27,535 nt of DNA from a virus: the IMG/VR virus record IMGVR_UViG_3300028025_004576, positions 1 through 27,535 of that record. One strand, given 5' to 3'. Positions 3,658 to 25,541 of this stretch are shown here, one piece after another; positions within the stretch are counted from its first letter, which is position 1; every line of letters begins with the position of its first letter. A model generated the notes under the pieces. It was not told the origin of the DNA and did not search any database. It saw only the letters and a list, made by a program, of their open reading frames with translations. The translations under genes were made by a program, and so were the position numbers.

Positions 3658-4862
3658 TGCCATACAACGATTACCCACAATCGGCATCGGACAACGCACA
3701 ACGCGCATTGGATTTCAAAGCCGAACGCGACATTGATTGCGGAACCGTTGTCGGTTGGACACGCGCCAACCAATTGGCCAGCCGTGAAGCGATTTCCGAC
3801 GAAATCGTTGTTCGCACATTTTCTTTTTTGGTCCGTGCCAAAGTTTACGACACCGGCGAATTTGAAGATTCCGAAGGGAATGTCGTTTGCGGTTCCGTGA
3901 TGTATGCCGCGTGGGGCGGTGACCCAATGATGGAATGGACCGAAGAAGTGATGGAGGGTTGGAACGCCGAAGAAGAATCAAAATTGACCCGCGCCGCCGC
4001 CGGTGAATTGTTCGTCGGTGATTTTGTTCGTTGGAACACGTCCACGGGTTTTGCTTACGGTCGCATCGTTCAAGTCGAATCAAATGGTGATTTGACAGCC
4101 ACGTCGGGGTTCTCGATGACCGGCACCAATGACGATCCCGTCGCATTGGTGCAAATTTACGATTTCGACGCCGACGCCAACGAATACGTTGAACGTCGCC
4201 CGGAATTGAATGTTGTTCACCGTTTTTCTACGTTGACAAAACACGACGAAGAACAACGCGGTTCCGCCGCAATCGTTGAACGTCGGGCGGTTTCCGATAT
4301 TGGAATCAGCAACGAAGCCACACGAACGGTCCGCGGTTACGCCGCCGTTTTCAATTCCGAATCCGAAGATTTGGGCGGGTTCATCGAATTGATCAAACCC
4401 GGCGCGTTTGACGACGTGATGAACGACGACGTCCGTGCGCTATTCAACCACGACCCGAACTATTTGTTGGGCCGCACAAAATCGGGAACATTGAAATTGT
4501 TCGTTGATGCCCGTGGTTTGGGTTACGAATACGATTCACCGGAAACCACATACGCAAACGATTTGTTGGAATTGATGCGCCGCGGCGACGTCACACAATC
4601 GTCGTTTGGTTTTACGGTAAAAAAGGACAATTGGATTCAGCGCGGAAACGTGATGTTCCGATTCATCGAAAAGGTAGGTCGCCTTTATGACGTTAGTCCC
4701 GTGACCTACCCAGCATACCCCGCCACGACCGCCGGAATCGCCAATCGGAATTCAATTCCAAATGACGATTTGCAGCGGGAACCCGTCGAGCAAAGCGCCG
4801 ATGGAAACACCGAAACGCCAATTCAAGCGTTCCGGATTCGTTTAATCAAAACACAAATTTGA
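3657..4862 (+). CDS. Prohead protease with extra N-terminal domains
   Basis: This 401-residue protein is about twice the length of a normal HK97 prohead protease. The C-terminal part (about 205-365) is the protease (U35/S78 type). It has RGYAAVFN, then H265 in ALFNHDP and S315/S316 in DVTQSSFGF as the expected His and Ser, and a VSPVTYPAYP end. The N-terminal part has two added segments. Residues 1-100 contain YPQSASDNAQRAL, CGT, GWTRANQLASREAIS and an AAWGGD motif. Residues 115-195 (GDFVRWNTSTGFAYGRI through TGTNDDPVALVQIY to HRFSTLTK) look like an SH3-like barrel module seen in some phage head proteins. The protease would process capsid delta domains and scaffold during maturation. The N-terminal part may bind portal or capsid or act in cis as scaffold (inference). 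Confidence 0.9.
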   Translation: MPYNDYPQSASDNAQRALDFKAERDIDCGTVVGWTRANQLASREAISDEIVVRTFSFLVRAKVYDTGEFEDSEGNVVCGSVMYAAWGGDPMMEWTEEVMEGWNAEEESKLTRAAAGELFVGDFVRWNTSTGFAYGRIVQVESNGDLTATSGFSMTGTNDDPVALVQIYDFDADANEYVERRPELNVVHRFSTLTKHDEEQRGSAAIVERRAVSDIGISNEATRTVRGYAAVFNSESEDLGGFIELIKPGAFDDVMNDDVRALFNHDPNYLLGRTKSGTLKLFVDARGLGYEYDSPETTYANDLLELMRRGDVTQSSFGFTVKKDNWIQRGNVMFRFIEKVGRLYDVSPVTYPAYPATTAGIANRNSIPNDDLQREPVEQSADGNTETPIQAFRIRLIKTQI

Positions 4863-11637: not shown

Positions 11638-14600
11638 ATGGCAATACGTTTCACATCAGAATTCCGGTCCGACACCGGAATCGACTACAAAATCGAAATC
11701 GACGATTCAATTTTCGTCGGTTCACCAACCACGTTTGCCGTTGGTTCCGATGGGTTCACATTGCAATACACGGGTGAAACCGATGATATTGTTTCGCCGA
11801 TCATGTCGTCGAACGTTTCCATTCCGTTCATGGTTCAAACGGTGTTGCAACAAACGTTTTTTGAGCAATTAGTCGCCGTCCAGGAATCCCGTTTTCGCGT
11901 TAAAATTTCACGTTGGGTGTCCGGCGCGTACCAAACGTATTGGGTCGGTTACATCATGCAAGATATCGCCCAAATCGAGGACGCCCCATTGCCGTACATT
12001 TACGATTTGCGGGCGGTTGACGGATTGGGACGGTTGGCCAACATTGACTACAACATAAACAACGATATTTTTCAAAATTCGTTGGCGTTGACGCGTTTGA
12101 ACAAATTGGTTTACAATTGTTTGGCCGCGGTTGGAACAACCGATTTGTTCACAATAACGGACACGTTTTTAGAAACGTGCGTGAATTGGTGGGAAAACAA
12201 CATGGTCTATTCAGCCACCAAAGACGCCGCCAATGAAATCGCCGTTGACCGACGCATTTGGACATCCATCGACGACAACGGCAACGAAACCTATTCAAAA
12301 GTTATTGAAGTTTTACGGCAACTTTGCGTGTCTTTTGGCGCACGGGTGTACCAATCCAACGGCCGATTTGTTTTCGAGCAATACGGCGAACGTGCGGCAG
12401 CATCACGAATCGTTTCAACATACGACCGCGCGGGCGCTTACATTGCCACGGCGTCAAAATCCGACGACATTGTAATTGATCAAACCATCGGCGAAGCGCG
12501 TTTGGCGGGAAATCAATTTGATTTTTTGCCCGCCATCAAACGTTGTGAAATTCAATTCCAACAAAAATTTATTGGTTCCAGGGTCGGGCAAATTTTTTTC
12601 ACATTCACGCAAACCGCCGCACAATCCATCGGGTTCATTTCGCAAGATTCTTCGGCGGTGTTGGAAATTGTGTGTCCAATGATGCATTTTTATATCAACC
12701 GGACGCCGAACACAATCATTGCCGTTCCATCCTATGCCATTGCGCCAATTTTTTCAATGACAATAAAAATTGAGGATGTAAACAACCCCGGCACTTTTTG
12801 GTATTTCAAACGAACATTTAGCGGGTTTTCAACGACGTCACCTTACACGACGCCACAATGGACAACCACGCCATCAGATTACCAATTCGACATTGGAAAT
12901 TTCAAATTTTCGCCCTATGCAACGGCTGGGTTGTCGTCACCGGTTACCATCCAAACGGATCAATTGCCCGTTTCCGGTGAATTGTCATTGCAATTGAAAC
13001 AACCAACGTTGCGTCGCGTTTCAAATGGCGCCATTTACGCACAACCGCCGTTGTATATTGGAATGATTGCCGGGTCGTCCATCAAACATGATTTTTTTGC
13101 AAATATCAACTACATTTCCGACGGCCAATTGTCGCCGGAATCAATCATTTACAAGGCGTCAAACAACACAAGTGGAATTGATTCAAATTTGGTGTTGGAA
13201 TTGGGCAATACATCCATTGCGGATGGCCCATTGCAAACGGGAAATTTGGCGGTTTGGAGTGGTTCAATTTGGGGCGGTTCCGACCAATGGCGCAAAGGCA
13301 ATTCCGGCGGTTATAAAAAATTGTTGCAACTATTAGTCACGGAAGCGTTGGCGTTACACGCGAAACCCATTCGGCGATACAACGGTTCATTTTATTCGTC
13401 CCATGACATTTCCCGACGTTACACCTTTGACACATTTGATTGGCTATTCATCGGAGGTTCGTTGAACGCCAACAACGAAAATGTTGACGGTGAATTTTTC
13501 GCTATTGCCCGTGACGTCACAAATATCGTTGACGTGAATTCCGGATTGTTCATTGGTGATTTGTCACCGATGTCGGTCAACAAAGTTTCCGGACCCAATT
13601 CATTCGGCGGCGTTTTTGGCGATGGTTCCATTGCTGGAATGTTGGTGGATTCGGACACGTTTTCCGTCGGTCCATTTTCACAACCCAACGCGGGCGAAGC
13701 ACGAATCACGGGAACAACAACCGTTGACGGCGACGCATTTTTCACCCAAGATGTTGACGTTACCGGCGATTTGGTTGTGGATGGAACCATCGTGATTGAC
13801 GGGTTGGGCGACGTTGCGACGGAATCGTGGGTGACGTCGCAAGGTTATTTGACTACCGCCGTCACAAGCGTTGCGCTTACGGCGCCATCGGCGTTCACGG
13901 TTACGGGTTCACCGATTACAACAACGGGAACAATTGCGATTGGTGCGGCCGGAACGTCGGGGCAATATGTGCGCGGCGATGGCCAATTAGCGAATTTTCC
14001 GACCAATACGGGCGGCGGGTCAACTGTGAACTATTATTTGAACGGATCCGTAAGTCAAGGCACGTTCGGCGGGGTTCCGTATTATGAAATTAGCCGCGTT
14101 CCAATTGTCGGCGCCGGAACCGATTTCATCCGAACCAATGCCGCCGGCAATGGCTATATTGCGTCGTTCATAACCGATGCCGGTGATCCTGCATTGTTGA
14201 ACATCCCTGGAGGTAACTGGAATTTGGAATTTTATTTCAATTCATCGTCGAGCGGAGGGACCCCGTCTTTTTATGGCGAATTGTACAAAGTGAATGCCGC
14301 AAATACATTCACCTTAATTGCGAGCGGTTCAACGAATCCCGAAGACATCACAAACGGCACAACGGTTGATCAATATTTTACGTCAATTCCCGTACCGCAA
14401 ACGACGTTGTTGGTTACGGACCGATTGGCGGTTCGTATTTATGTGATTACCAACGGCCGAAACGTAACGTTGCACACGGAAAATGGCAATTTGTGCGAGG
14501 TTATTACAACCTTTTCCACGGGATTGAGCGCATTGAACGGGTTGACCGAACAAGTACAGTATTTCGCCACCGGAACAAGCGGAAGCGATTTCAATATCAA

Positions 14601-17600
14601 TTCCGCAACGAACACACACACGTTCAATTTTCCGACCGGTTCGGCGACAAATCGCGGTTTAATTTCAACGGCCGATTGGACGAATTTCAACACGGCCTAT
14701 AATGACAAAATAAATAGCGCCGCCGTAACGGGAACGACAACAAAAACGTTGACGTTGACGCAGCAAGATGGCGGAACAATTACCGCATCGTGGACCGATT
14801 ACGACACGGCGCCAGTCACAAGCGTATTCGGCCGCACGGGTGTTGTTGTCGCCGTTGGTGGTGATTACAACACAAGCCAGGTCACGGAAAACACCAATTT
14901 GTATTTCACCGATGCACGGGCCAGGGCGGCAATAAGTTTGACCACAACGGGAACAAGCGGGGCGGCAACGTATAACAATACGACCGGGGTCATAAACATT
15001 CCGCAATATCAAGCGGTGTTGACGAATCCCGTGACGGGAACGGGAACAACGAATTATGTTTCCAAATTCACGGGAACAAGCACCGTTGGAAATTCGCAAA
15101 TCTTTGACAACGGAACCAACGTCGGCATTGGGACCACAAGTCCGGGCGCAAAACTTGACGTGAGTGGAATTGCACGGGCAACAAGTTTATCAACGGTTAG
15201 CGGTTTGGGTTTGCAGGTTGGGGGTTATGCTTTTTTGAGCCAAACCACATCGGGGGTGATGACCTTTTTGGGACACAACATTCGTGCGTCCGATTCGGTG
15301 GCAAATACCGCAATTGTTCAAAATGCTGGTTGGATTTCGTCGTTGATGAAAATGTACTATTCCGACGGAATAACGTTCCACACCGATTCAACCGTGTACG
15401 CAGCGGGCGCAACATACCCATTGTCAACGTCCGAACGTATGCGAATTACACCCGCTGGAAACGTTGGCATTGGGACGACAACCCCCAACGGAAAACTCCA
15501 GGTAGACGGCGATTTTTATGTCAACGGCCTGGATCGAAAAATAATGAATTACAATGGCGCCGTTGACTACGGCACGTTGACAAATAATTCCGTAAGATTT
15601 AACCAAAACGGTACGGAAATAGCGAGAATAAATACCAGCGGAAACTTTGGCATTGGTACGACATCGCCATTTTCACGCTTTACTGTTAGCGGTGCTTTGA
15701 GCGCATCAACATCGCAAATTAGCATCGTAAACACCGAAGGCGGTCATTCAATTATTCGAGCTGGAATTTCTGGTGTTTCCAACAATGGAATGTCGTTTGT
15801 CACCGCAAACGTTGATGGTTCATCACAAAATGTTCGGATGGTTGTTGGCGCAACTGGACGTGTTGGAATTGGAACGACAAGCCCCCCCCAAGCCCTTTCA
15901 GTAATTGGAAACATTTACCAAAGAACGGGCGATTTCATAACATGGGACAACGGTGACGCTCAAATCGGCGCAGTTTCCGGGTATTCGTTGACATTTAGCA
16001 CATACAACGGATCAACCGCATTGCTTGAACGCCTCCGCATCACATCGGCAGGAAACGTCGGGATTGGAACGACAAGTCCAACTGCTCAATTGGATGTAAC
16101 TGGAAGTACAAGCACCACTAAAATAAAGGTCGTTTCTCCTACCGCAAGTTCTTTATTTGAAAGTGGTATTGAGTTTATACGAACAACTGTTGCTGGCGGA
16201 TCAAAAATACAATCAATAAGAGATGCGTCATTAGGTGGGGTTGGTTTAACATTTCATACAACTGCAGATAATGCTGCAGAAGTTGCTGCGACTTACTCGC
16301 AGAGAATGGCTATTTTACCAAATGGAAATGTTTTAATTGGTACAACTACAGATTCTGGATTCAAATTTGAAACCACGGGAACAGGACGATTCAGCCAAAC
16401 AACGGCAATACCTTTGACGGTCCAACGCACTACGGCAAATTCAAACGTTGGAATCCGATATCAAAATAACACGACATCGTGGTATTCCGGTTTGGCCGCT
16501 GATGATTCATTTTCGGTTTCGTTTAACGATGCGAATTTGTCAGCAGGACAATTCAAGGTAGCGACAACTGGCGCAGCAACGTTTACAAGTAGCGTCACGG
16601 CAACGTCGTTCAATGGCACAACGAACAACATTTTGAGCGTTGGCGGAACGGAGCGTATGCGAATCAATTCGTCTGGAAACGTTGGAATCGGCACGACAAG
16701 TCCAGCGACAAGGTTGGATGTATTGGGGGCGTCAAGTGCCGACGTTACGTTGCAATTAAAAGCAAACGCGTCAAATGATTACAATTCAAAGATATTTTTC
16801 AGCGATAACGTAAGCAATAGAGGTGTCATATTGTACAGCAATTGGCAAAACTATTTTTCATTTTTTACAAATTCATCCGAGCGTGTCCGTATTGATTCAA
16901 GCGGAAACGTTGGTATTGGAACCACATCACCGGCAGTAAAATTGCACGTTGAAGGCCGAATATATGCGGGGGACATTGGCATTGCCACCACATCACCAAC
17001 GCAAAAATTGCACGTTGTAGGCAACGCACGAATCACCGGGGCGATTCACGATTCGCTGAATTCGCCCGGAACCGCCGGTCAAGTTTTATCATCAACCGTA
17101 ACCGGAACGGAATGGATCACGGGCGGTGGAGGCGGTGGTTCAACGATCATTGTCAAAGACGAAGGAACGACCATCGGTTCATCGTTTACCACATTGAATT
17201 TTGCTGGAAACAACATCCAGGCGACGGCAAGTGGTGCAACTGCCAACATCACGGCGTTCAACAACGCCGGAACGGGTTCGTATTATTTGAACGCGGCAAT
17301 AACAAATTATGCCCCAGGTGCGACATTTGACGACGTTGAAATTGATTCGGCGTTGATTGTTGCATCATCACCCGACGCCGCATCGGGTTCGTCAAAATTG
17401 ATTGCAACGGTGACGTTCGGCGTTGAAAACGTTTCGTCGTATGACGGTTTCAACAACTTTGAATTCCGTTTGTACGACGTGTCACAATCAATTGTTGTTT
17501 CAGATACAACACATACATGGACGGGTTATATGTCAAAAGACGAAGGGGCAACACGAACCGTGTTCACGTTTCACATTCCGTTGCAAGATGATGTCACGCC

Positions 17601-17694
17601 GGGCGATCAAATCAACGTCCAAGCGAAACAAGGCGTTTCATACACGCCCGAAATTTACTATTGCGCGATCACGTTACTGGAAGGAACTACTTAA
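11638..17694 (+). CDS. Giant distal tail / receptor-binding fibre protein
   Basis: This 2018-residue protein is the largest gene and the only one between tape measure and lysis region, so it probably combines distal-tail, tail-tip and receptor-binding roles. Residues 1-640 are non-repetitive and resemble the baseplate-type part of Bacteroidota phage tail proteins (MAIRFTSEFRS..GIDYKIEIDD, a VFEQYGER region). Residues 640-740 form a VTGDLVVDGTIVID transition. About 1060-1101 hold the fibre motif VTSVFGRTGVVVA and NLYFTDARARAAIS. About 1160-1790 carry nine GIGTTSP-type repeats. Residues 1833-2018 form a distinct C-terminal domain after a GGGGGG hinge, predicted beta-sandwich and plausibly the receptor-contacting tip. 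No S74 chaperone domain is seen. Codon use changes in 16081-16380. Confidence 0.87.
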   Translation: MAIRFTSEFRSDTGIDYKIEIDDSIFVGSPTTFAVGSDGFTLQYTGETDDIVSPIMSSNVSIPFMVQTVLQQTFFEQLVAVQESRFRVKISRWVSGAYQTYWVGYIMQDIAQIEDAPLPYIYDLRAVDGLGRLANIDYNINNDIFQNSLALTRLNKLVYNCLAAVGTTDLFTITDTFLETCVNWWENNMVYSATKDAANEIAVDRRIWTSIDDNGNETYSKVIEVLRQLCVSFGARVYQSNGRFVFEQYGERAAASRIVSTYDRAGAYIATASKSDDIVIDQTIGEARLAGNQFDFLPAIKRCEIQFQQKFIGSRVGQIFFTFTQTAAQSIGFISQDSSAVLEIVCPMMHFYINRTPNTIIAVPSYAIAPIFSMTIKIEDVNNPGTFWYFKRTFSGFSTTSPYTTPQWTTTPSDYQFDIGNFKFSPYATAGLSSPVTIQTDQLPVSGELSLQLKQPTLRRVSNGAIYAQPPLYIGMIAGSSIKHDFFANINYISDGQLSPESIIYKASNNTSGIDSNLVLELGNTSIADGPLQTGNLAVWSGSIWGGSDQWRKGNSGGYKKLLQLLVTEALALHAKPIRRYNGSFYSSHDISRRYTFDTFDWLFIGGSLNANNENVDGEFFAIARDVTNIVDVNSGLFIGDLSPMSVNKVSGPNSFGGVFGDGSIAGMLVDSDTFSVGPFSQPNAGEARITGTTTVDGDAFFTQDVDVTGDLVVDGTIVIDGLGDVATESWVTSQGYLTTAVTSVALTAPSAFTVTGSPITTTGTIAIGAAGTSGQYVRGDGQLANFPTNTGGGSTVNYYLNGSVSQGTFGGVPYYEISRVPIVGAGTDFIRTNAAGNGYIASFITDAGDPALLNIPGGNWNLEFYFNSSSSGGTPSFYGELYKVNAANTFTLIASGSTNPEDITNGTTVDQYFTSIPVPQTTLLVTDRLAVRIYVITNGRNVTLHTENGNLCEVITTFSTGLSALNGLTEQVQYFATGTSGSDFNINSATNTHTFNFPTGSATNRGLISTADWTNFNTAYNDKINSAAVTGTTTKTLTLTQQDGGTITASWTDYDTAPVTSVFGRTGVVVAVGGDYNTSQVTENTNLYFTDARARAAISLTTTGTSGAATYNNTTGVINIPQYQAVLTNPVTGTGTTNYVSKFTGTSTVGNSQIFDNGTNVGIGTTSPGAKLDVSGIARATSLSTVSGLGLQVGGYAFLSQTTSGVMTFLGHNIRASDSVANTAIVQNAGWISSLMKMYYSDGITFHTDSTVYAAGATYPLSTSERMRITPAGNVGIGTTTPNGKLQVDGDFYVNGLDRKIMNYNGAVDYGTLTNNSVRFNQNGTEIARINTSGNFGIGTTSPFSRFTVSGALSASTSQISIVNTEGGHSIIRAGISGVSNNGMSFVTANVDGSSQNVRMVVGATGRVGIGTTSPPQALSVIGNIYQRTGDFITWDNGDAQIGAVSGYSLTFSTYNGSTALLERLRITSAGNVGIGTTSPTAQLDVTGSTSTTKIKVVSPTASSLFESGIEFIRTTVAGGSKIQSIRDASLGGVGLTFHTTADNAAEVAATYSQRMAILPNGNVLIGTTTDSGFKFETTGTGRFSQTTAIPLTVQRTTANSNVGIRYQNNTTSWYSGLAADDSFSVSFNDANLSAGQFKVATTGAATFTSSVTATSFNGTTNNILSVGGTERMRINSSGNVGIGTTSPATRLDVLGASSADVTLQLKANASNDYNSKIFFSDNVSNRGVILYSNWQNYFSFFTNSSERVRIDSSGNVGIGTTSPAVKLHVEGRIYAGDIGIATTSPTQKLHVVGNARITGAIHDSLNSPGTAGQVLSSTVTGTEWITGGGGGGSTIIVKDEGTTIGSSFTTLNFAGNNIQATASGATANITAFNNAGTGSYYLNAAITNYAPGATFDDVEIDSALIVASSPDAASGSSKLIATVTFGVENVSSYDGFNNFEFRLYDVSQSIVVSDTTHTWTGYMSKDEGATRTVFTFHIPLQDDVTPGDQINVQAKQGVSYTPEIYYCAITLLEGTT
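15121..16999 (+). repeat. Nine GIGTTSP-type repeats in the fibre
   Basis: The repeats share a core NVGIGTTSP followed by a short segment ending in (K/R)LxVxG. They start near 15121, 15460, 15643, 15858, 16054, 16327, 16678, 16906 and 16973. The sixth (NVLIGTTTDSG) and ninth (DIGIATTSP) are degenerate. At DNA level the shared stretch is variations on ATTGGAACGACAAGTCC. Spacing is irregular (about 65-350 bp), which fits shaft building blocks inserted or lost by recombination rather than a strict tandem array. Similar repeats are common in fibres and surface proteins of Bacteroidota and their phages. Confidence 0.88.
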
Positions 17695-19244: not shown

Positions 19245-19250
19245 ATTTCC

Positions 19251-19295
19251 ACGGCATACAACGAACCGCCACGCGTTCGCTGATGCCGTTTTTTT
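19251..19295 (+). terminator. Intrinsic terminator of the late operon
   Basis: Outer stem ACGGCAT (19251-19257) pairs with ATGCCGT (19283-19289). Inside it, CGAAC pairs with GTTCG around an 8-base loop. Seven T residues (19289-19295) follow directly. It lies 6 bp after the spanin stop and is a textbook intrinsic terminator. Confidence 0.88.
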
Positions 19296-19301
19296 GACGC
19301 G

Positions 19302-19360
19302 TAACGAAGTTTTACGCCGCTTTGGTACATTGGTATCACCGCGGCGTTTTTAATTCGTTA
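19302..19360 (+). terminator. Second, nested dyad terminator
   Basis: TAACGAA (19302-19308) pairs with TTCGTTA (19354-19360), and inside it ACGCCGC (19314-19320) pairs with GCGGCGT (19341-19347), followed by five T residues. The AT-rich junctions (GTTTT, TTTTAA) make an interrupted 59-bp palindrome. It may back up the first terminator; an operator or RNA-processing role is possible. Confidence 0.65.
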
Positions 19361-19478
19361 AAACGCACGAAAACGCTTCATCGGTTTTTTTATGGGTTTG
19401 GCGTTGGTTGTTGACATCGGAAACACATTCATTCAAACGATGGGGTTGGTTGGTAGGTGGAAAGGGGATGTGGATGAA

Positions 19479-19513
19479 AAGGTATGGGACCCCCCATAGG
19501 GGGGCCCATCCAT
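19479..19513 (-). repeat. GC-rich hairpin element, copy 2 (inverted)
   Basis: These 35 bases are the exact reverse complement of 2282-2316. The strand read here has GGGACCCCCC, a three-base ATA loop, then GGGGGGCCC. As at copy 1, the upstream flank is G/T- or purine-rich (about 19441-19478) and the downstream flank A/C-rich (19514-19560), so a long imperfect hairpin is again possible. Identity extends beyond the palindromic core, which argues for duplication or strong constraint rather than chance. Confidence 0.88.
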
Positions 19514-19560
19514 TCACATACCCCCATCCGTACATACAACCACATCACCACATCCATCAA

Positions 19561-19578
19561 TTAACAATGCGTTGTTAA
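19561..19578. promoter_or_regulatory. Candidate operator dyad
   Basis: TTAACAA (19561-19567), four bases TGCG, then TTGTTAA (19572-19578) form a perfect 7-bp inverted repeat. CGTTGT occurs in it (19570-19575) and again at 19586-19591. It lies about 34 bp upstream of the promoter -33 element, where an activator or repressor could bind. No regulator gene is recognised in the window. Confidence 0.45.
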
Positions 19579-19611
19579 TATAACACGTTGTAAAATTTTT
19601 TTTGAACAAGT

Positions 19612-19642
19612 GTTGCGGGAATGAATTTTGGTTGTATGTTTG
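19612..19642 (+). promoter_or_regulatory. Bacteroidota-type promoter for the early genes
   Basis: GTTG at 19612-19615, a 19-base spacer, then TATGTTTG at 19635-19642 fit the Bacteroidota primary sigma pattern (TTTG or TTG, 17-23 bases, TAnnTTTG). Transcription would start near 19650, giving a leader of about 30 bases before the ATG at 19681. It faces the early module and lies after two terminators, a logical place. Confidence 0.65.
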
Positions 19643-19680
19643 CCAAGTGAACGACAAACAACCCCGGTCACGAAAGCAAA

Positions 19681-19839
19681 ATGAAACCATTTATCACAAT
19701 CAACATTCACCCGCTACGCATGGCCATTCGTTCCATCGTTCGGAATTGGCAATTGATCGCATTTGCCGCAACTGGATTCATGTTGGGCCATTCGCTTCGC
19801 CCAATTTTGCGAATCATCATTTTCACATTTTTCAAATGA
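19681..19839 (+). CDS. Small membrane protein (52 aa)
   Basis: This is the first gene after the early promoter. The product begins MKPFITINIHPLRMAIRS and then has a hydrophobic region (LIAFAATGFMLGHSL) and a second hydrophobic C-terminal stretch (ILRIIIFTFF), with basic residues between. It is probably membrane-associated; the function is unknown. The leader carries CGAAAGCA just before the start. Its TGA overlaps the next ATG in an ATGA, which supports it being a real gene. An early membrane protein could affect host physiology or exclusion, but nothing in the sequence proves this. Confidence 0.65.
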   Translation: MKPFITINIHPLRMAIRSIVRNWQLIAFAATGFMLGHSLRPILRIIIFTFFK

Positions 19840-19994
19840 CCTACATCGTCACATTTTTAGACGGTCGCCAGGTGACTGTCTGGGCGAAATCCGCCAACAA
19901 CGCCGGCCAGGCCGCAACGGAAATCCGATGCAACGAAGATGAAACGGGCGACGTTCCGCCGATTCGTTCCATCGCCCACCATCCAAATTATTAA
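19836..19994 (+). CDS. Small hypothetical protein (52 aa)
   Basis: The start at 19836 is chosen for the ATGA overlap; the frame is also open upstream, but that part overlaps the leader and the previous gene. The product reads MTYIVTFLDGRQVTVWAKS and then NNAGQAATEIRCNED, ending in ...SIAHHPNY. This beta-beta-alpha-like plan (strand, D-G turn, strand, then an 'A.NA..AA.E' helix) is common in tiny phage proteins that look like single ubiquitin- or ferredoxin-like units. The function is unknown. Confidence 0.68.
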   Translation: MTYIVTFLDGRQVTVWAKSANNAGQAATEIRCNEDETGDVPPIRSIAHHPNY

Positions 19995-20040
19995 ACAATT
20001 ACATCAACCGAAAGCATCTAAATTTAACAAAATCAACAAA

Positions 20041-20661
20041 ATGACAAAACCCGATTTCATCAAAGGTCACCAAATGTTCGTCAACGGCAAGGCCGTTTGG
20101 GCGAAAGTGACAAGCGCCACCGGTCCGAATGATATGTCACAAAAATATCAATTGGATTTGGAATTGGACGAAGCATCGTTGGCGGAAATTCAATCGTTCG
20201 GAACACGCGTTTTTGAAGCGATTGTAAAAACAACCCGCAAGGCGAAAGATTCCGACGAACGCGTTGAATGTGCGCCATTCATCACGCCAAAATCAAATAA
20301 TTTGCCACGCGTGTTCGGCGCAAACCGTTTGCCGTACGACGGCCCCATCGGTAATGGTTCCGATGTTCGTTGCCAAATCATCATCAAAGTATTTGAATAC
20401 AAAGGGAAAAAAGGGTTGACGGTGTATTTGAACGCCGTCGTCGTTGTTTCCCTTGTTGAATACTCCAATATCAACGAAGATGCGTTGTTCGATGGTTTAA
20501 CCGCTGGTTCCGACGACGTGTTCGGCGAAGCGCCAAAACCAAATGTTGATGAATGGTCCCCGAATATCGGACCGACAACAAAGGCAACAACCGCCACACA
20601 AATAATCAAAGATAAAAACGCGGCGAAACCCGCAATTGAGGACGACGATTTGCCATTTTGA
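20041..20661 (+). CDS. Single-stranded DNA-binding protein (gp2.5/DUF2815-like)
   Basis: This 206-residue protein has the phage SSB plan of an OB-like core followed by a flexible linker and an acidic tip. GKAVWAKVTSATGPN near the start, then KYQLDLELDE, LPRVFG, GPIGNGSDVRCQIIIKVFEY and KGLTVYLNAVVVVSLVEY, match the DUF2815/T7 gp2.5-type family. The C-terminus EDDDLPF is the acidic-aromatic tail through which SSBs bind partner proteins. The start at 20041 fits the family; an in-frame ATG at 19939 would overlap the previous gene and adds an unrelated segment. It would coat ssDNA at replication forks and recombination ends. Confidence 0.88.
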   Translation: MTKPDFIKGHQMFVNGKAVWAKVTSATGPNDMSQKYQLDLELDEASLAEIQSFGTRVFEAIVKTTRKAKDSDERVECAPFITPKSNNLPRVFGANRLPYDGPIGNGSDVRCQIIIKVFEYKGKKGLTVYLNAVVVVSLVEYSNINEDALFDGLTAGSDDVFGEAPKPNVDEWSPNIGPTTKATTATQIIKDKNAAKPAIEDDDLPF

Positions 20662-20737: not shown

Positions 20738-21151
20738 ATGAATCCATTTCAAATGCGATTGGCGAACGAAATCATGGAATCGGTTTCCCGATATTACCAA
20801 ATCACCGTTTCCGAAATCACCGAAAAAAGACGCCACGCAAAAATTGTTCGCGCCCGCCAGGTCGCCGCGTATTTGTTGCGCGAAGATTTACGATTGTCGT
20901 TGCACGAAATTGGCGCAATTATTAACCGCGATCATTCGTCGGTTGTTCATGCCCACAAAGCCATCAAAGAATTAACAACGCCGAACGTGATTGGAGTGTT
21001 TGCCGACAAAACGTTGGTGATGGAAATTTCCGACATCCGTCATTTGTGCAAATCAACATGGTCACGCCAGGAAATTGACGAAATCGAATATCAAATGGAA
21101 CGTTTAACCCTACGCCGCGACGAATTGTTGCGGGCGCAAAATTCAAAGTAA
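20738..21151 (+). CDS. DnaA domain IV-like DNA-binding protein
   Basis: In this 137-residue protein the first 80 residues match the C-terminal DNA-binding domain of the replication initiator DnaA. YYQITVSEITEKRR is followed by ARQVAAYLLRE, LSLHEIGAIIN and the signature RDHSSVVHAHKAI (residues 64-76), where R-D-H contacts the DnaA box in bacterial DnaA. The AAA+ ATPase domain is absent. Residues 100-137 are a charged helix. It may bind DnaA-box-like sites to start phage replication, recruit the host replisome, or titrate or compete with host DnaA (all inference). It lies between SSB and the RecE-like nuclease in the early module. Confidence 0.9.
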   Translation: MNPFQMRLANEIMESVSRYYQITVSEITEKRRHAKIVRARQVAAYLLREDLRLSLHEIGAIINRDHSSVVHAHKAIKELTTPNVIGVFADKTLVMEISDIRHLCKSTWSRQEIDEIEYQMERLTLRRDELLRAQNSK

Positions 21152-21153
21152 GC

Positions 21154-21342
21154 ATGAAAAAAATGAAAATGAACTCATTGAATTGGATGTCCCTTTGGTT
21201 CATCACGTTCAAATTGGGCGAAATCGGTTCATTCGGCGAATGGACATGGTTTGAAATTTTATTGCCATTTTGGTTGAATTTGGGATTGATGTTTTTTGTT
21301 GAATTGGCCAAACGATTGGCCGAAGAAAATGAATTAAAATGA
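21154..21342 (+). CDS. Small membrane protein (62 aa)
   Basis: This tryptophan-rich protein has hydrophobic segments at about residues 10-20 (LNWMSLWFITF) and 33-50 (WFEILLPFWLNLGLMFFVEL), a basic N-terminus (MKKMKMN) and a charged C-terminal end. It is probably a one- or two-pass membrane protein of unknown role. It starts 2 bp after the DnaA-like gene and overlaps the nuclease gene in an ATGA. Confidence 0.7.
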   Translation: MKKMKMNSLNWMSLWFITFKLGEIGSFGEWTWFEILLPFWLNLGLMFFVELAKRLAEENELK

Positions 21343-22067
21343 AAGACATATTGTTGTCGTTTTCGGCCATTAAAGAATTCAACAAATCGCCGTTGCATTT
21401 TTTGACCTACAAAGCAAAAAAGAAAATCGAAACACCCGCCATGCGGTTCGGGAAAGCGGTTCACAAACTGGTTTTGGAATTCGACGAATTTTCCAAAGAA
21501 TATGCCGTCGCCCCGGAATGTGATCGCCGAACCACCGTCGGGAAAAACATTTGGAATGAATTCACGGAATCGGCTGGCGACAAAACCGTGTTGACGCAAT
21601 CGGAAATGGTGTCCATCCTGGATATTAAACACGCCATTGATCAACACCCAGCCGCATCGGAAATTGTGAAGTATTGCACAAATCGTGAACAACACGTTGA
21701 AACCGAAATCTTTGGTCACAAATTTCACGGATTCGTTGATGGTTTTGGTCCTGGATTGGCGTTTGATTTGAAAACAACGATGGACGCGTCCGAACACAAA
21801 TTCACCCGAACGATTGAATACGATTTGTATTTCGTCCAGGCGGCCATATATTGCCATGCATTGAATTTGGATGAATTCCGATTCATTGCCGTCGAATCGG
21901 CAGCGCCCCACATGATTGGCGTGTATCGTTTGGAATCGGAATGGTTGGAAATTGGATTGAAAAAATTAGAAGTAATTTTGGAAAAATTCAACCAATGGGA
22001 TGGCACGGCGGAACATTACAATTCAAACCGAACCGTGACACCCCGTGTTAACCCGTTTTTGATATGA
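21339..22067 (+). CDS. RecE-like PD-(D/E)XK exonuclease
   Basis: This 242-residue nuclease is of the exodeoxyribonuclease VIII/PDDEXK_1-like type. LSFSAIKEFNKSPLHFLTYK is the usual N-terminal helix, with H42 in MRFGKAVHKL. The catalytic core has D134 in GFVDG, D143 and K145 in FDLKTT, and Q167 in FVQAAIY. Such enzymes degrade dsDNA ends 5'-to-3' to make 3' tails for annealing, usually next to an annealing protein. No RecT/Erf-type annealase is recognised here; the SSB may serve, or an unknown gene may. All key residues are present. Confidence 0.88.
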   Translation: MKDILLSFSAIKEFNKSPLHFLTYKAKKKIETPAMRFGKAVHKLVLEFDEFSKEYAVAPECDRRTTVGKNIWNEFTESAGDKTVLTQSEMVSILDIKHAIDQHPAASEIVKYCTNREQHVETEIFGHKFHGFVDGFGPGLAFDLKTTMDASEHKFTRTIEYDLYFVQAAIYCHALNLDEFRFIAVESAAPHMIGVYRLESEWLEIGLKKLEVILEKFNQWDGTAEHYNSNRTVTPRVNPFLI

Positions 22068-22412: not shown

Positions 22413-22630
22413 AAAAAGGAAAGGAATGGTTGGCAATGTTGCCAAAGGAAACGCAATCAAAATGGATTCGCGAGGCGATTGGCCAAAATAAAAAGGAAAT
22501 GATTCGTTATTTTTTGGATCGCGATTTTGAATCAATGTCCGAATTCATTTTGACAACTATTTTGTGGCAAACGTCAAAAGACGGCGTGACGTATTGGGGA
22601 AACATCGCATACAACGAACAATACACATGA
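22409..22630 (+). CDS. Small hypothetical protein (73 aa)
   Basis: This helical protein has KEWLAMLPKETQSKWIREA and then FESMSEFILTTILWQTSKDG and YWGNIAYNE. The pattern 'FLxxxFxSxxxFIxxxxxWxxTxxGxxYW' recurs in small early proteins of Bacteroidota phages as I remember them; no function is known. ATGA overlaps on both sides support translation. Confidence 0.7.
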   Translation: MKKGKEWLAMLPKETQSKWIREAIGQNKKEMIRYFLDRDFESMSEFILTTILWQTSKDGVTYWGNIAYNEQYT

Positions 22631-23079
22631 ACCTACCGGAAACGATTAAACAATTGAATGAATTCGCCATTCAATTAAACGCCAAAAAATACGAACACGT
22701 TCCGCCACACGCCGTACCGCGGCCGAAGGTATTGGGCGACAAAGACGCCAATTCATTGACGGCGTCGGTGTTGTTTGATTTCATCCACATTCGCGGCGGA
22801 TATGCGTTCCGTGTCAACAATATGGGTGTTTTCGACGCCAAACGCGGCGTGTATCGTAAGGGCGGAACCGTGAAAGGTATTCCGGACATTATTGGATTGA
22901 TTGATGGCCGTTTCATTGGAATTGAAATTAAATTCGGTTCCGATCGTATGTCGGCCGATCAAATGGAAATGAAACGTGAAATCGAATCAAATGGCGGCAT
23001 TTATATTGTCGCCAAACGATACGAACAATACGTTTTGGATTTAGCCAACGCCATTGGCGTTGGTGTCCTGGAAATATGA
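22627..23079 (+). CDS. VRR-NUC domain nuclease
   Basis: This 150-residue protein has a VRR-NUC fold (PD-(D/E)XK superfamily). A helix with NSLTASVLFDFIHIRGG is followed by FRVNNMGVF, then KGIPDIIGLIDG with catalytic D87, and GIEIKFG with E100 and K102. SADQMEMKREIESNGG follows as the usual closing helix. Stand-alone phage VRR-NUC proteins cut branched DNA, for example as Holliday-junction or flap nucleases; the substrate here is not known. The start at 22627 is chosen for the ATGA overlap; an upstream ATG at 22564 would overlap the previous gene. Confidence 0.9.
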   Translation: MNLPETIKQLNEFAIQLNAKKYEHVPPHAVPRPKVLGDKDANSLTASVLFDFIHIRGGYAFRVNNMGVFDAKRGVYRKGGTVKGIPDIIGLIDGRFIGIEIKFGSDRMSADQMEMKREIESNGGIYIVAKRYEQYVLDLANAIGVGVLEI

Positions 23080-23459
23080 ACGAACAAAGAATCGCCGGTG
23101 TTGTTGGCGAATTGATTTTCGCCCAACGCGCCGCGGAAATGGGATTCGTGACGTCGTTTCCGATGTTTTTGGCGTCGGAATACGACGTAATTATTGACAC
23201 CGGTTCACAACTGTTCCGGGTTCAAATCAAAGCAACACGTTCCGAACTCCGTCCAGGCGTGTTCAAATTCACGATTGATTCGTCTTTGAACGTGAAATAC
23301 ACGGGCAATTGTGTTGACGTTTTCGCGTTCGTTCACATCGATTCACGACGTATTTGGTTGGTTCCCGCACACAACGTCATTCATTTGAAAACGTTTTCCG
23401 TAAACGAAAACAACGGACGCAATGAAATGTATTTAGATTTTTGGGAAATTTTTTTGTAA
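23076..23459 (+). CDS. PD-(D/E)XK endonuclease-like protein
   Basis: This 127-residue protein has GVVGELIFAQRAAEMGF (E12), SEYDVIID (D37) and FRVQIKAT (Q50, K52). This E-D-QxK layout fits the PF11645-type PD-(D/E)XK endonucleases and resolvase-like proteins. The use of Q in place of the usual E/D before K is common in that group. It lies directly after the VRR-NUC gene in an ATGA overlap. A junction-resolving or restriction-like role is possible. Confidence 0.8.
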   Translation: MNEQRIAGVVGELIFAQRAAEMGFVTSFPMFLASEYDVIIDTGSQLFRVQIKATRSELRPGVFKFTIDSSLNVKYTGNCVDVFAFVHIDSRRIWLVPAHNVIHLKTFSVNENNGRNEMYLDFWEIFL

Positions 23460-23469
23460 AATTGCAAAA

Positions 23470-23485
23470 CGAAAGCACGAAAGCA
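23470..23485 (+). promoter_or_regulatory. Tandem CGAAAGCA before the PrimPol gene
   Basis: CGAAAGCA occurs twice head to tail (23470-23477 and 23478-23485), and the ATG follows after one base. The same octamer precedes the first early gene (19671-19678) and the ssDNA-binding gene (20009-20016). It may be a translation signal or protein-binding site in early leaders. Confidence 0.45.
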
Positions 23486-23486
23486 A

Positions 23487-25541
23487 ATGACAATCAAAGA
23501 CGCAGCCGCGCGATACATCGCGCATGGATATTCACCGATCCCGTTGTCCGGGAAACGGCCCATTGTTCCGGGATGGACAAAATTCGCAGAAAAACAAATT
23601 GATGACCTACAAATTTTCGACACCGCCACCGGAATCGGATTGGTGTGTGGATTCAACGGCCTGGAGGTCGTCGATGTGGACACAAAGCACCACGACGGCG
23701 ATGAATGGGTTCAGTTTTGCCAACTCCTTAACGACAACACCGACGCCCTATTGGACAAATTGGTGATTGCAAACACGCCGTCGGGCGGTGTTCACCTATT
23801 GTACCAATGCGATGAAATCGCCGGAAATCAAAAACTATCTAAAAACAAACGCGGTGAGGTGACATTTGAAACCCGTGGAATGGGCGGACAAATCGCCGCG
23901 TTTCCATCGCCGGGTTACACATACGAAACCAAACGCGCCATTCAACGCATCACACCCGATGAACGGGCGATTTTGTTGGATTGCGCGCGGGCGATGGACC
24001 AATCGCCATCCACGGAAATCATCGCCGCCGTTCGTCAAACGATGGCCGCACAATTGCCAGGCGATTCGGTTCGTCCCGGCGATGATTACGCGTCAAAGGT
24101 GTCGGCGCTGGAAATCTTATCAAAGCACGGTTGGATCATTGGACGCCACATAAAGGACCACATTTTAGTAAAACGGCCAGGCGATACAAACGCGGAATCG
24201 TCGGGCAAAGTGTTCGTCGAATCGGGTTTGTTTTTTTGTTGGACGACGTCCACGGTGTTCGATGCCGAACGTGCGTACAATTCATTCGCCATTTACGCGA
24301 TTTTGGAACACGGCGGCGATTTCCACACCGCCGCAAAAACTTTGGGTGGTTTGGGATTCGGTGAACAAAAGAAGTCCGCATTGGACGACGAACAATTGTT
24401 CGCCATCAAATCAATGTCGTCGGTTTACACGGCGCCAGGTGTTGACACGCCCCCGATGGACATCGACGAACCAACCGAACAAATTGAATTGACGGCGGAC
24501 GAAATCAAAGCGCGTGAATTGATTGACCGTTTGTTTTCGTTTGAAGTGGATTCAACTGTGATTCCGCCAAAACCACCGGTCGCAATTGAATTGATTGACA
24601 CGGTTGATCGTTACATTTTGGGAACATTGGGAAATTTTTCATTGGTCCAGGGCAAAGCGAAGTCACGCAAATCGTTTTTTGTGTCCGCATTGGCCGCCGC
24701 TGGAACATCAATAATTGACGTTTGCAACAAGTTTCGCGGTTACAATAGCGGAAAATGTGTTGTTTATATTGACACCGAACAAGGGGATTTCCACGCCCAC
24801 CGCGTCAAATCACGGATTCACCACATGGCGGGATTGGCGCCCGACGCCAACACGCCGTTGGTTCGTTATTTTCAATTGAGGTCGGCGGAAAACAATAAAG
24901 AGCGATTGATGTTGTCGCAAGTCGCCATCGCATCAATTCAAAACATCGGCGTGTTGATTTTGGACGGTGTTGTCGATTTGATGTCGAAAGGCGTGAATGA
25001 CGAAGAAGAAGCCACGGAAATGGCGTCACGTTTGTTGAAATGGTCCGCGCAACTCAATTGCCACATCATTTGTGTGTTGCACGAAAACAAAAACGACCGC
25101 AACGCAAAGGGACATTTGGGCGCTTATTTGGTGCAAAAAGCGGAAACGGTATTCGCCGTTACCCGTGAAGATGACGACACGGTAATTTCCGCGGAATACA
25201 CTCGGAACAAATCGTTTCCCGATATTAAAATGACCATTGATGACGACGGGCGCCCGGCGTTTGAATTGGTGACGCCACAACCCACCGCCAAACGCAAAGC
25301 ATTGACCGACGCCGATTTGTTTGAAATTGGCGCAGCGGTTAACGGAATGAAGAAAACCGATGCCCGTGATTGGGTTCGCGTGAACAAAAACACAACCGAC
25401 GCCCACGCGCGCCAGGTGATTCAAGACATCATCATCAAAGGATTTGTCAATGCCGTACAAGACGACAAAGGCCGTGGATTTACCTTGCAATTAGTAAATT
25501 TTCCAACCCCTAATTTGAAAGCCGATGAAACGCCTTTTTAA
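23487..25541 (+). CDS. Primase-polymerase / RecA-like helicase fusion
   Basis: This 684-residue replication protein has two parts. The N-terminal bifunctional primase-polymerase domain (about 1-180) has PIPLSGKRPIVPGW, catalytic D63 and D65 in VVDVDTKH, H103 in SGGVHLLY, and FETRGMGGQIAAFPSPGY. The C-terminal RecA/AAA_25-type ATPase (about 370-600) has Walker A GKAKSRKS (389-396), Walker B with D493 in VLILDG, and LHEN (531-534). A helical linker (247-292, CWTTSTVFDAERAYNSF) and a C-terminal winged-helix-like end join them. The protein probably primes and unwinds at the phage origin. No separate DNA polymerase gene is present, so extension may rely on the host or on this protein. Confidence 0.93.
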   Translation: MTIKDAAARYIAHGYSPIPLSGKRPIVPGWTKFAEKQIDDLQIFDTATGIGLVCGFNGLEVVDVDTKHHDGDEWVQFCQLLNDNTDALLDKLVIANTPSGGVHLLYQCDEIAGNQKLSKNKRGEVTFETRGMGGQIAAFPSPGYTYETKRAIQRITPDERAILLDCARAMDQSPSTEIIAAVRQTMAAQLPGDSVRPGDDYASKVSALEILSKHGWIIGRHIKDHILVKRPGDTNAESSGKVFVESGLFFCWTTSTVFDAERAYNSFAIYAILEHGGDFHTAAKTLGGLGFGEQKKSALDDEQLFAIKSMSSVYTAPGVDTPPMDIDEPTEQIELTADEIKARELIDRLFSFEVDSTVIPPKPPVAIELIDTVDRYILGTLGNFSLVQGKAKSRKSFFVSALAAAGTSIIDVCNKFRGYNSGKCVVYIDTEQGDFHAHRVKSRIHHMAGLAPDANTPLVRYFQLRSAENNKERLMLSQVAIASIQNIGVLILDGVVDLMSKGVNDEEEATEMASRLLKWSAQLNCHIICVLHENKNDRNAKGHLGAYLVQKAETVFAVTREDDDTVISAEYTRNKSFPDIKMTIDDDGRPAFELVTPQPTAKRKALTDADLFEIGAAVNGMKKTDARDWVRVNKNTTDAHARQVIQDIIIKGFVNAVQDDKGRGFTLQLVNFPTPNLKADETPF

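Follow-up and report, generated by a model that had tools for sequence, protein, structure and literature searches.

What could the DNA-reading domain of DnaA do in a phage that encodes it on its own, detached from the rest of the initiator? The question is raised by an ORF of the window (the whole 27,535-nucleotide stretch analysed here), a 27.5-kb virus contig that carries terminase, portal, head protease, major head, tail and tape-measure genes. The ORF, on the forward strand at 20738-21151, runs from ATG to TAA and encodes 137 amino acids; in the matching register, the opposite strand is rich in stops.

The product matches the Pfam family Bac_DnaA_C (PF08299) from residue 10 to residue 76, covering profile positions 2-69 of 69, with an E-value of 9.7e-22 and a score of 77.2 bits (curated cut-off, 31.5). 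The segment RDHSSVVHAHKAI corresponds to residues 64-76. A phmmer search against solved structures matched six distinct DnaA sequences, among them those of E. coli, M. tuberculosis and A. aeolicus, and nothing else. An AlphaFold2 model built on 13 aligned viral sequences reaches a mean pLDDT of 90.6, and its residues 7-108 superpose on two DnaA-box complexes: 3pvp (Z 17.0, rmsd 1.3 Å over 95 residues) and 1j1v (Z 16.7, rmsd 1.4 Å over 93 residues, 32% identity). An alignment of 19 rows, with database phages among them, proved too diverse for scanning; rows from the window and the fetched loci took its place. No AAA+/ATPase domain, the domain III that a full DnaA initiator possesses, was found in the 137 residues. 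Profile and predicted fold thus identify the product as a DnaA domain IV, and bear out the sequence-only reading, which had described such a domain in a phage without its ATPase. Compared with a sister phage, the gene displays 49 nucleotide differences, of which 36 fall on third codon positions, and only nine amino-acid differences, a pattern indicative of purifying selection.

Are the residues that contact the DnaA box retained? In E. coli numbering, the window protein keeps R399, D433 (its D65) and H434, while T435 is replaced by serine, S400 and P423 by histidine, and K443 by alanine; judged from the alignment, the contacts of the window clade are still near-canonical. The family as a whole is highly divergent: members outside this clade are about 20% identical to the window protein. 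Across 22 representatives chosen at less than 80% identity, the only invariant columns, among the domain columns filled in all sequences, are the equivalents of R399, R407 and H434; the last two are said to have been found in contact with DNA by Fujikawa in 2003. The D433 equivalent is altered in most lineages, being mostly N, S or K outside that of the window, and the T435 equivalent is A, S, C or P elsewhere in the family. In the E. coli complex, as PMC9638019 summarizes it, R399 occupies the minor groove and T435 is in contact with bases. Variation at D433 and T435 around an invariant core fits a family that would have kept DNA binding while its specificity drifts between lineages. It makes a site on phage DNA a better candidate for the target of the family than the conserved DnaA box of the host.

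The helix that the model adds at the C-terminus (Table 1) lies outside the DnaA fold. The hydrophobicity of its a and d heptad positions exceeds that of shuffled tails in 17 of 22 family members (Wilcoxon p 4e-4, for sequences that are not independent); for the tail of the window protein alone, p is 0.26. Dimerization through a coiled coil is suggested for the family, with weak evidence from the window protein taken by itself.

The gene is surrounded by replication and nuclease genes (Table 1). The primase half of the PrimPol-helicase matches the ORF904 PrimPol of an archaeal plasmid, while structure comparison of the helicase half returns RSF1010 RepA, RadA, RAD51 and DnaB about equally (Z 18-19), which leaves the exact helicase type unsettled by structure. 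Neither a DnaB-type helicase gene (DnaB_C) nor an IstB/DnaC-like loader gene was found in this record, and DnaB_C was likewise not found in 16 related records. PADLOC returned no match for the proteins tested. To note, identity to the related locus L011 drops to 40% in the PDDEXK_5 gene, against 80-82% for the neighbouring genes, and the gene may be read as a swapped or fast-evolving nuclease.

Table 1. Positions of the DnaA domain IV gene, its neighbours and the associated sequence elements in the window
Feature	Position	Strand	Basis or remark
Largely non-coding region preceding the SSB gene; candidate origin or operator	19245-20040		
TCATCCACA, DnaA-box-like site, one mismatch	19469-19477	-	Also in the close relatives G001 and L011; count not above chance
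Bacteroidota-type promoter-like sequence, GTTG-N19-TATGTTTG	19612-19642	+	Chance expectation 0.5 per window; Bacteroidota host only suggested
Gp2.5-like SSB, acidic tip EDDDLPF	20041-20661	+	Start at 20041 chosen by eye
Stand-alone DnaA domain IV gene, 137 aa	20738-21151	+	Pfam; purifying selection relative to a sister phage
Bac_DnaA_C domain, residues 10-76	20765-20965	+	Pfam
Additional helix at the C-terminus (residues 110-136) with heptad pattern; candidate coiled coil	21065-21145	+	AlphaFold2 model
RecE/exonuclease VIII-like PDDEXK nuclease	21339-22067	+	
VRR-NUC-like nuclease	22564-23079	+	Pfam match below curated cut-off
PDDEXK_5 endonuclease-like protein	23076-23459	+	
Fusion of PrimPol and RecA-fold helicase (AAA_25); probable partner	23487-25541	+	

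Is this neighbourhood conserved? Searches with the PrimPol-helicase gathered 31, then 80 viral loci, of which 46, window included, carry a related PrimPol-helicase preceded by 3.5 kb of sequence or more. Several other “phage” matches were bacterial chromosomal dnaA and were left out: L009 (CAKLQH020000026.1), filed as an Acinetobacter phage, exhibits the order rpmH-dnaA-dnaN-recF-gyrB of a bacterial chromosome. An iterated DnaA domain IV profile detects an ORF 1.7-4.5 kb upstream of the PrimPol-helicase gene, on the same strand, in 37 of the 46 loci; these share ancestry and do not amount to 37 independent cases. When ten members were checked directly with Pfam, nine matched Bac_DnaA_C with an E-value no higher than 1e-4 and the tenth, L075, at only 0.04, so that the iterated profile has reached very divergent members. 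A Gp2.5-like SSB gene lies directly upstream of the DnaA domain IV gene in 34 of the 37 loci. With each open frame taken to start at its first ATG, the two genes are at most 80 bp apart or overlap in 33 of these 34 pairs, several of which show the short overlap typical of translational coupling. The order is near-invariant: SSB, DnaA domain IV, (exonuclease), VRR-NUC, PDDEXK_5 and PrimPol-helicase. In cultured flavobacterial phages, too, a DnaA domain IV gene has neighbours whose annotation is that of primosomal or DNA replication proteins.

The remaining nine loci have no DnaA domain IV gene, nor does Pfam detect one anywhere else in their records. Seven of them (L018, L019, L084, L091, L101, L106 and L107) form one clade in the PrimPol tree and lack the Gp2.5-like SSB and VRR-NUC genes as well; L110, whose sequence is too short to be placed in the tree, shares the gene order of this clade, and L103, with only 3.5 kb upstream, is probably a truncated contig. 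This clade keeps its PrimPol-helicase, so the helicase can work there without the DnaA domain IV protein. The co-presence of SSB and DnaA domain IV genes gives a Fisher value of 2e-7, which overstates the evidence because their joint absence is a single event.

Given the position of the gene in a conserved viral replication cluster, the protein most likely marks the start of viral DNA replication. From the domain, its fold, the core contact residues and the linkage to the SSB and PrimPol-helicase genes, we infer, with a probability of roughly 0.6, a phage-specific, ATPase-free origin-recognition protein serving an SSB/PrimPol-helicase replisome. A DnaA domain IV devoid of its AAA+ motor would act as the phage initiator and would be made together with the adjacent SSB. 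It would bind one or a few sites of the phage DNA, probably as a dimer held by the C-terminal helix, and help to load the PrimPol-helicase there. As the protein has no domain I, II or III, neither an ATP-driven filament nor origin melting by it is expected; opening would be left to SSB, helicase and transcription, and SSB would protect the opened strands. The linkage itself shows association, not mechanism. Among the roles proposed from sequence alone, marking the origin for the PrimPol-helicase is the one favoured by the linkage across phages and by the search of the record, in which no DnaB-type or DnaC/IstB-type gene was found; no cluster of boxes was found either. Borrowing of host DnaB loading is unsupported, if still conceivable: DnaA domains I and III are absent and the phage possesses its own helicase.

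The protein might instead bind a phage promoter region and turn on a block of genes. Real precedents exist in gene transfer agents: the N-terminal DnaA-like domain of GafA is required for promoter activation (PMC9638019), GafY, first named HdaB, and GafZ are the counterparts of the two portions of GafA, N- and C-terminal respectively (PMC9632790), and GafY binds promoters together with IHF (PMC11150451). These proteins share with that of the window a phage-derived context and a small DnaA domain IV-like DNA-binding domain outside DnaA, and the window provides both a promoter-like sequence and a hairpin element that flanks the late gene block on either side. GafA and GafY, however, activate transcription with a sigma-like partner, and none was detected among the window ORFs scanned with Pfam, which included part of the small ones. 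GafA, moreover, has E8 at the position of DnaA R399 (PMC9638019), the residue that is kept here and invariant in the 22 representatives. The conserved linkage, besides, is to SSB and PrimPol-helicase genes rather than to late genes. We consider a role as transcription activator unlikely.

Interference with the host, by occupying its DnaA boxes or acting on DnaA control so that initiation is stopped or raised to the benefit of the phage, draws on the near-canonical contacts of the window protein and on HdaB, whose overproduction is reported to affect chromosome replication in work cited in PMC9632790. The shutdown of host initiation envisaged by the sequence-only reading is possible for this protein, given its contacts, but fits the family poorly: changes at D433 and T435 in most lineages are unexpected for a conserved host box. 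The gene, moreover, stays tied to those of phage replication. We consider this role improbable. A third possibility is that the protein is an accessory of recombination-dependent replication, bringing SSB and the nucleases, the RecE-like enzyme among them, to a site while something else acts as initiator. The SSB and three nuclease genes next to it, and the clade devoid of SSB, DnaA domain IV and VRR-NUC together, would agree with such a role; against it, the SSB/DnaA domain IV pairing persists where the exonuclease varies in type or escapes detection, and we know of no DnaA domain IV recombination factor. We consider it improbable as well.

If the origin-recognition reading is correct, where does the protein bind? 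A DnaA-box site in the phage had been expected and was not found: canonical box-like sites are neither enriched nor clustered. With up to two mismatches, TTATCCACA has 57 matches in the window against 83 in dinucleotide shuffles, and TTWTNCACA has two against 5.2 expected. A depletion of boxes was rejected, as 47% of permuted 9-mers of the same composition have as few matches or fewer; since permuted 9-mers behave alike, neither depletion nor enrichment is claimed. A search for iterons in ten loci, the window and nine related ones (9-mers with at most one mismatch in 300-bp stretches, eight shuffles per locus), gave nothing convincing: the maxima fall within the shuffle range or equal its top, mostly on low-complexity or coding words. 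With no cluster of boxes or iterons found in the window or in nine related loci, the binding site and the origin are putative. The best lead is the mostly non-coding region upstream of the SSB gene, in which the TCATCCACA site and the promoter-like sequence are likewise leads only.

Stand-alone DnaA domain IV proteins are common in phages, and they are already annotated in PHROGs, BFVD and cultured phages. The window protein matches phrog_27829 and phrog_30669, DnaA-like replication initiation families, with E-values of 9.7e-6 and 2.7e-5; BFVD holds many entries of the same fold, named “Chromosomal replication initiator, DnaA C-terminal”, from uncultured Caudovirales; and further examples occur in Polaribacter P12002L, Tenacibaculum Gundel_1 and Pelagibacter HTVC204P. 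All are likewise short, with no full-length DnaA, and several have replication genes as neighbours, as here. Their identity to the window protein is low, about 25-42%, and their partners are DnaC-like or primosomal genes instead of a Gp2.5-like SSB and a PrimPol-RecA-fold helicase. With bacterial DnaA, the window protein shares the domain IV fold and the core box contacts; it differs by the absence of domains I, II and III and by its extra C-terminal helix. An analogy may be drawn with RSF1010, in which a RecA-fold helicase, RepA, works beside RepC, an ATPase-free origin-binding protein that is not a DnaA domain IV; here, the helicase half matches RepA no better than RadA or DnaB, and no iterons were found. 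The DnaA-like-I plasmid replicases of Rhodobacterales (Petersen 2011, cited in PMC4148982) are likewise extrachromosomal and named after DnaA, a likeness by description only; unlike the window virus, their replicons are alphaproteobacterial plasmids with parAB partitioning.

New here are the conserved partnership with SSB and PrimPol-helicase and the pattern of invariant contacts. A literature search found no functional test of such a protein when it comes from a virulent phage and stands alone. The module offers a concrete set of partners with which to ask whether the DNA-reading domain of DnaA can define an origin without an ATPase, and the natural variation at D433 and T435 constitutes a ready series for following how DnaA-box recognition changes. 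A wider proposal, which we hold at somewhat less than even odds, is that of a widespread phage replisome in which an ATPase-free DnaA domain IV protein with a coiled coil would serve as minimal initiator, working alongside a PrimPol-helicase and an SSB whose translation is coupled to its own; changes at D433 and T435 would provide lineage-specific origin codes.

The host of the virus is only suggested. PrimPol matches in Cellulophaga, Flavobacterium and Olleya phages, together with the promoter-like sequence, may point to Bacteroidota; others occur in Arthrobacter phages, and those of terminase and portal spread over Firmicutes, Actinobacteria and others. No relatives of PrimPol or terminase were found in genome_contigs. 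A 2018-residue tail fibre-like protein with many NVGIGTTSP-type repeats is encoded at 11638-17694.

Two further non-coding elements were observed. An intergenic block of about 55 bp (19629-19683), almost identical in three related phages, contains TATGTTTG and, just before an ATG, CACGAAAGCA; ACGAAAGC also occurs in tandem at 23469-23485, ahead of the PrimPol start. The block is possibly a promoter and leader motif. The other is a hairpin element of about 115 nucleotides, present as two inverted copies, 78% identical, at 19441-19560 (forward strand) and 2357-2235 (reverse strand), with an invariant core, ATGGGACCCCCCATAGGGGGGCCCAT. The copies stand at both ends of the late structural block, one between g1936 and the portal gene and the other between g18834 and the SSB gene, and both positions recur in relatives. 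Rfam gave no match for this element, for which a boundary terminator, an origin or a structured RNA are candidates. Two related contigs end at it (L062, at 13863-13888 of 13903; L063, at 4083-4108 of 4119), probably because assembly breaks at repeated sequence.
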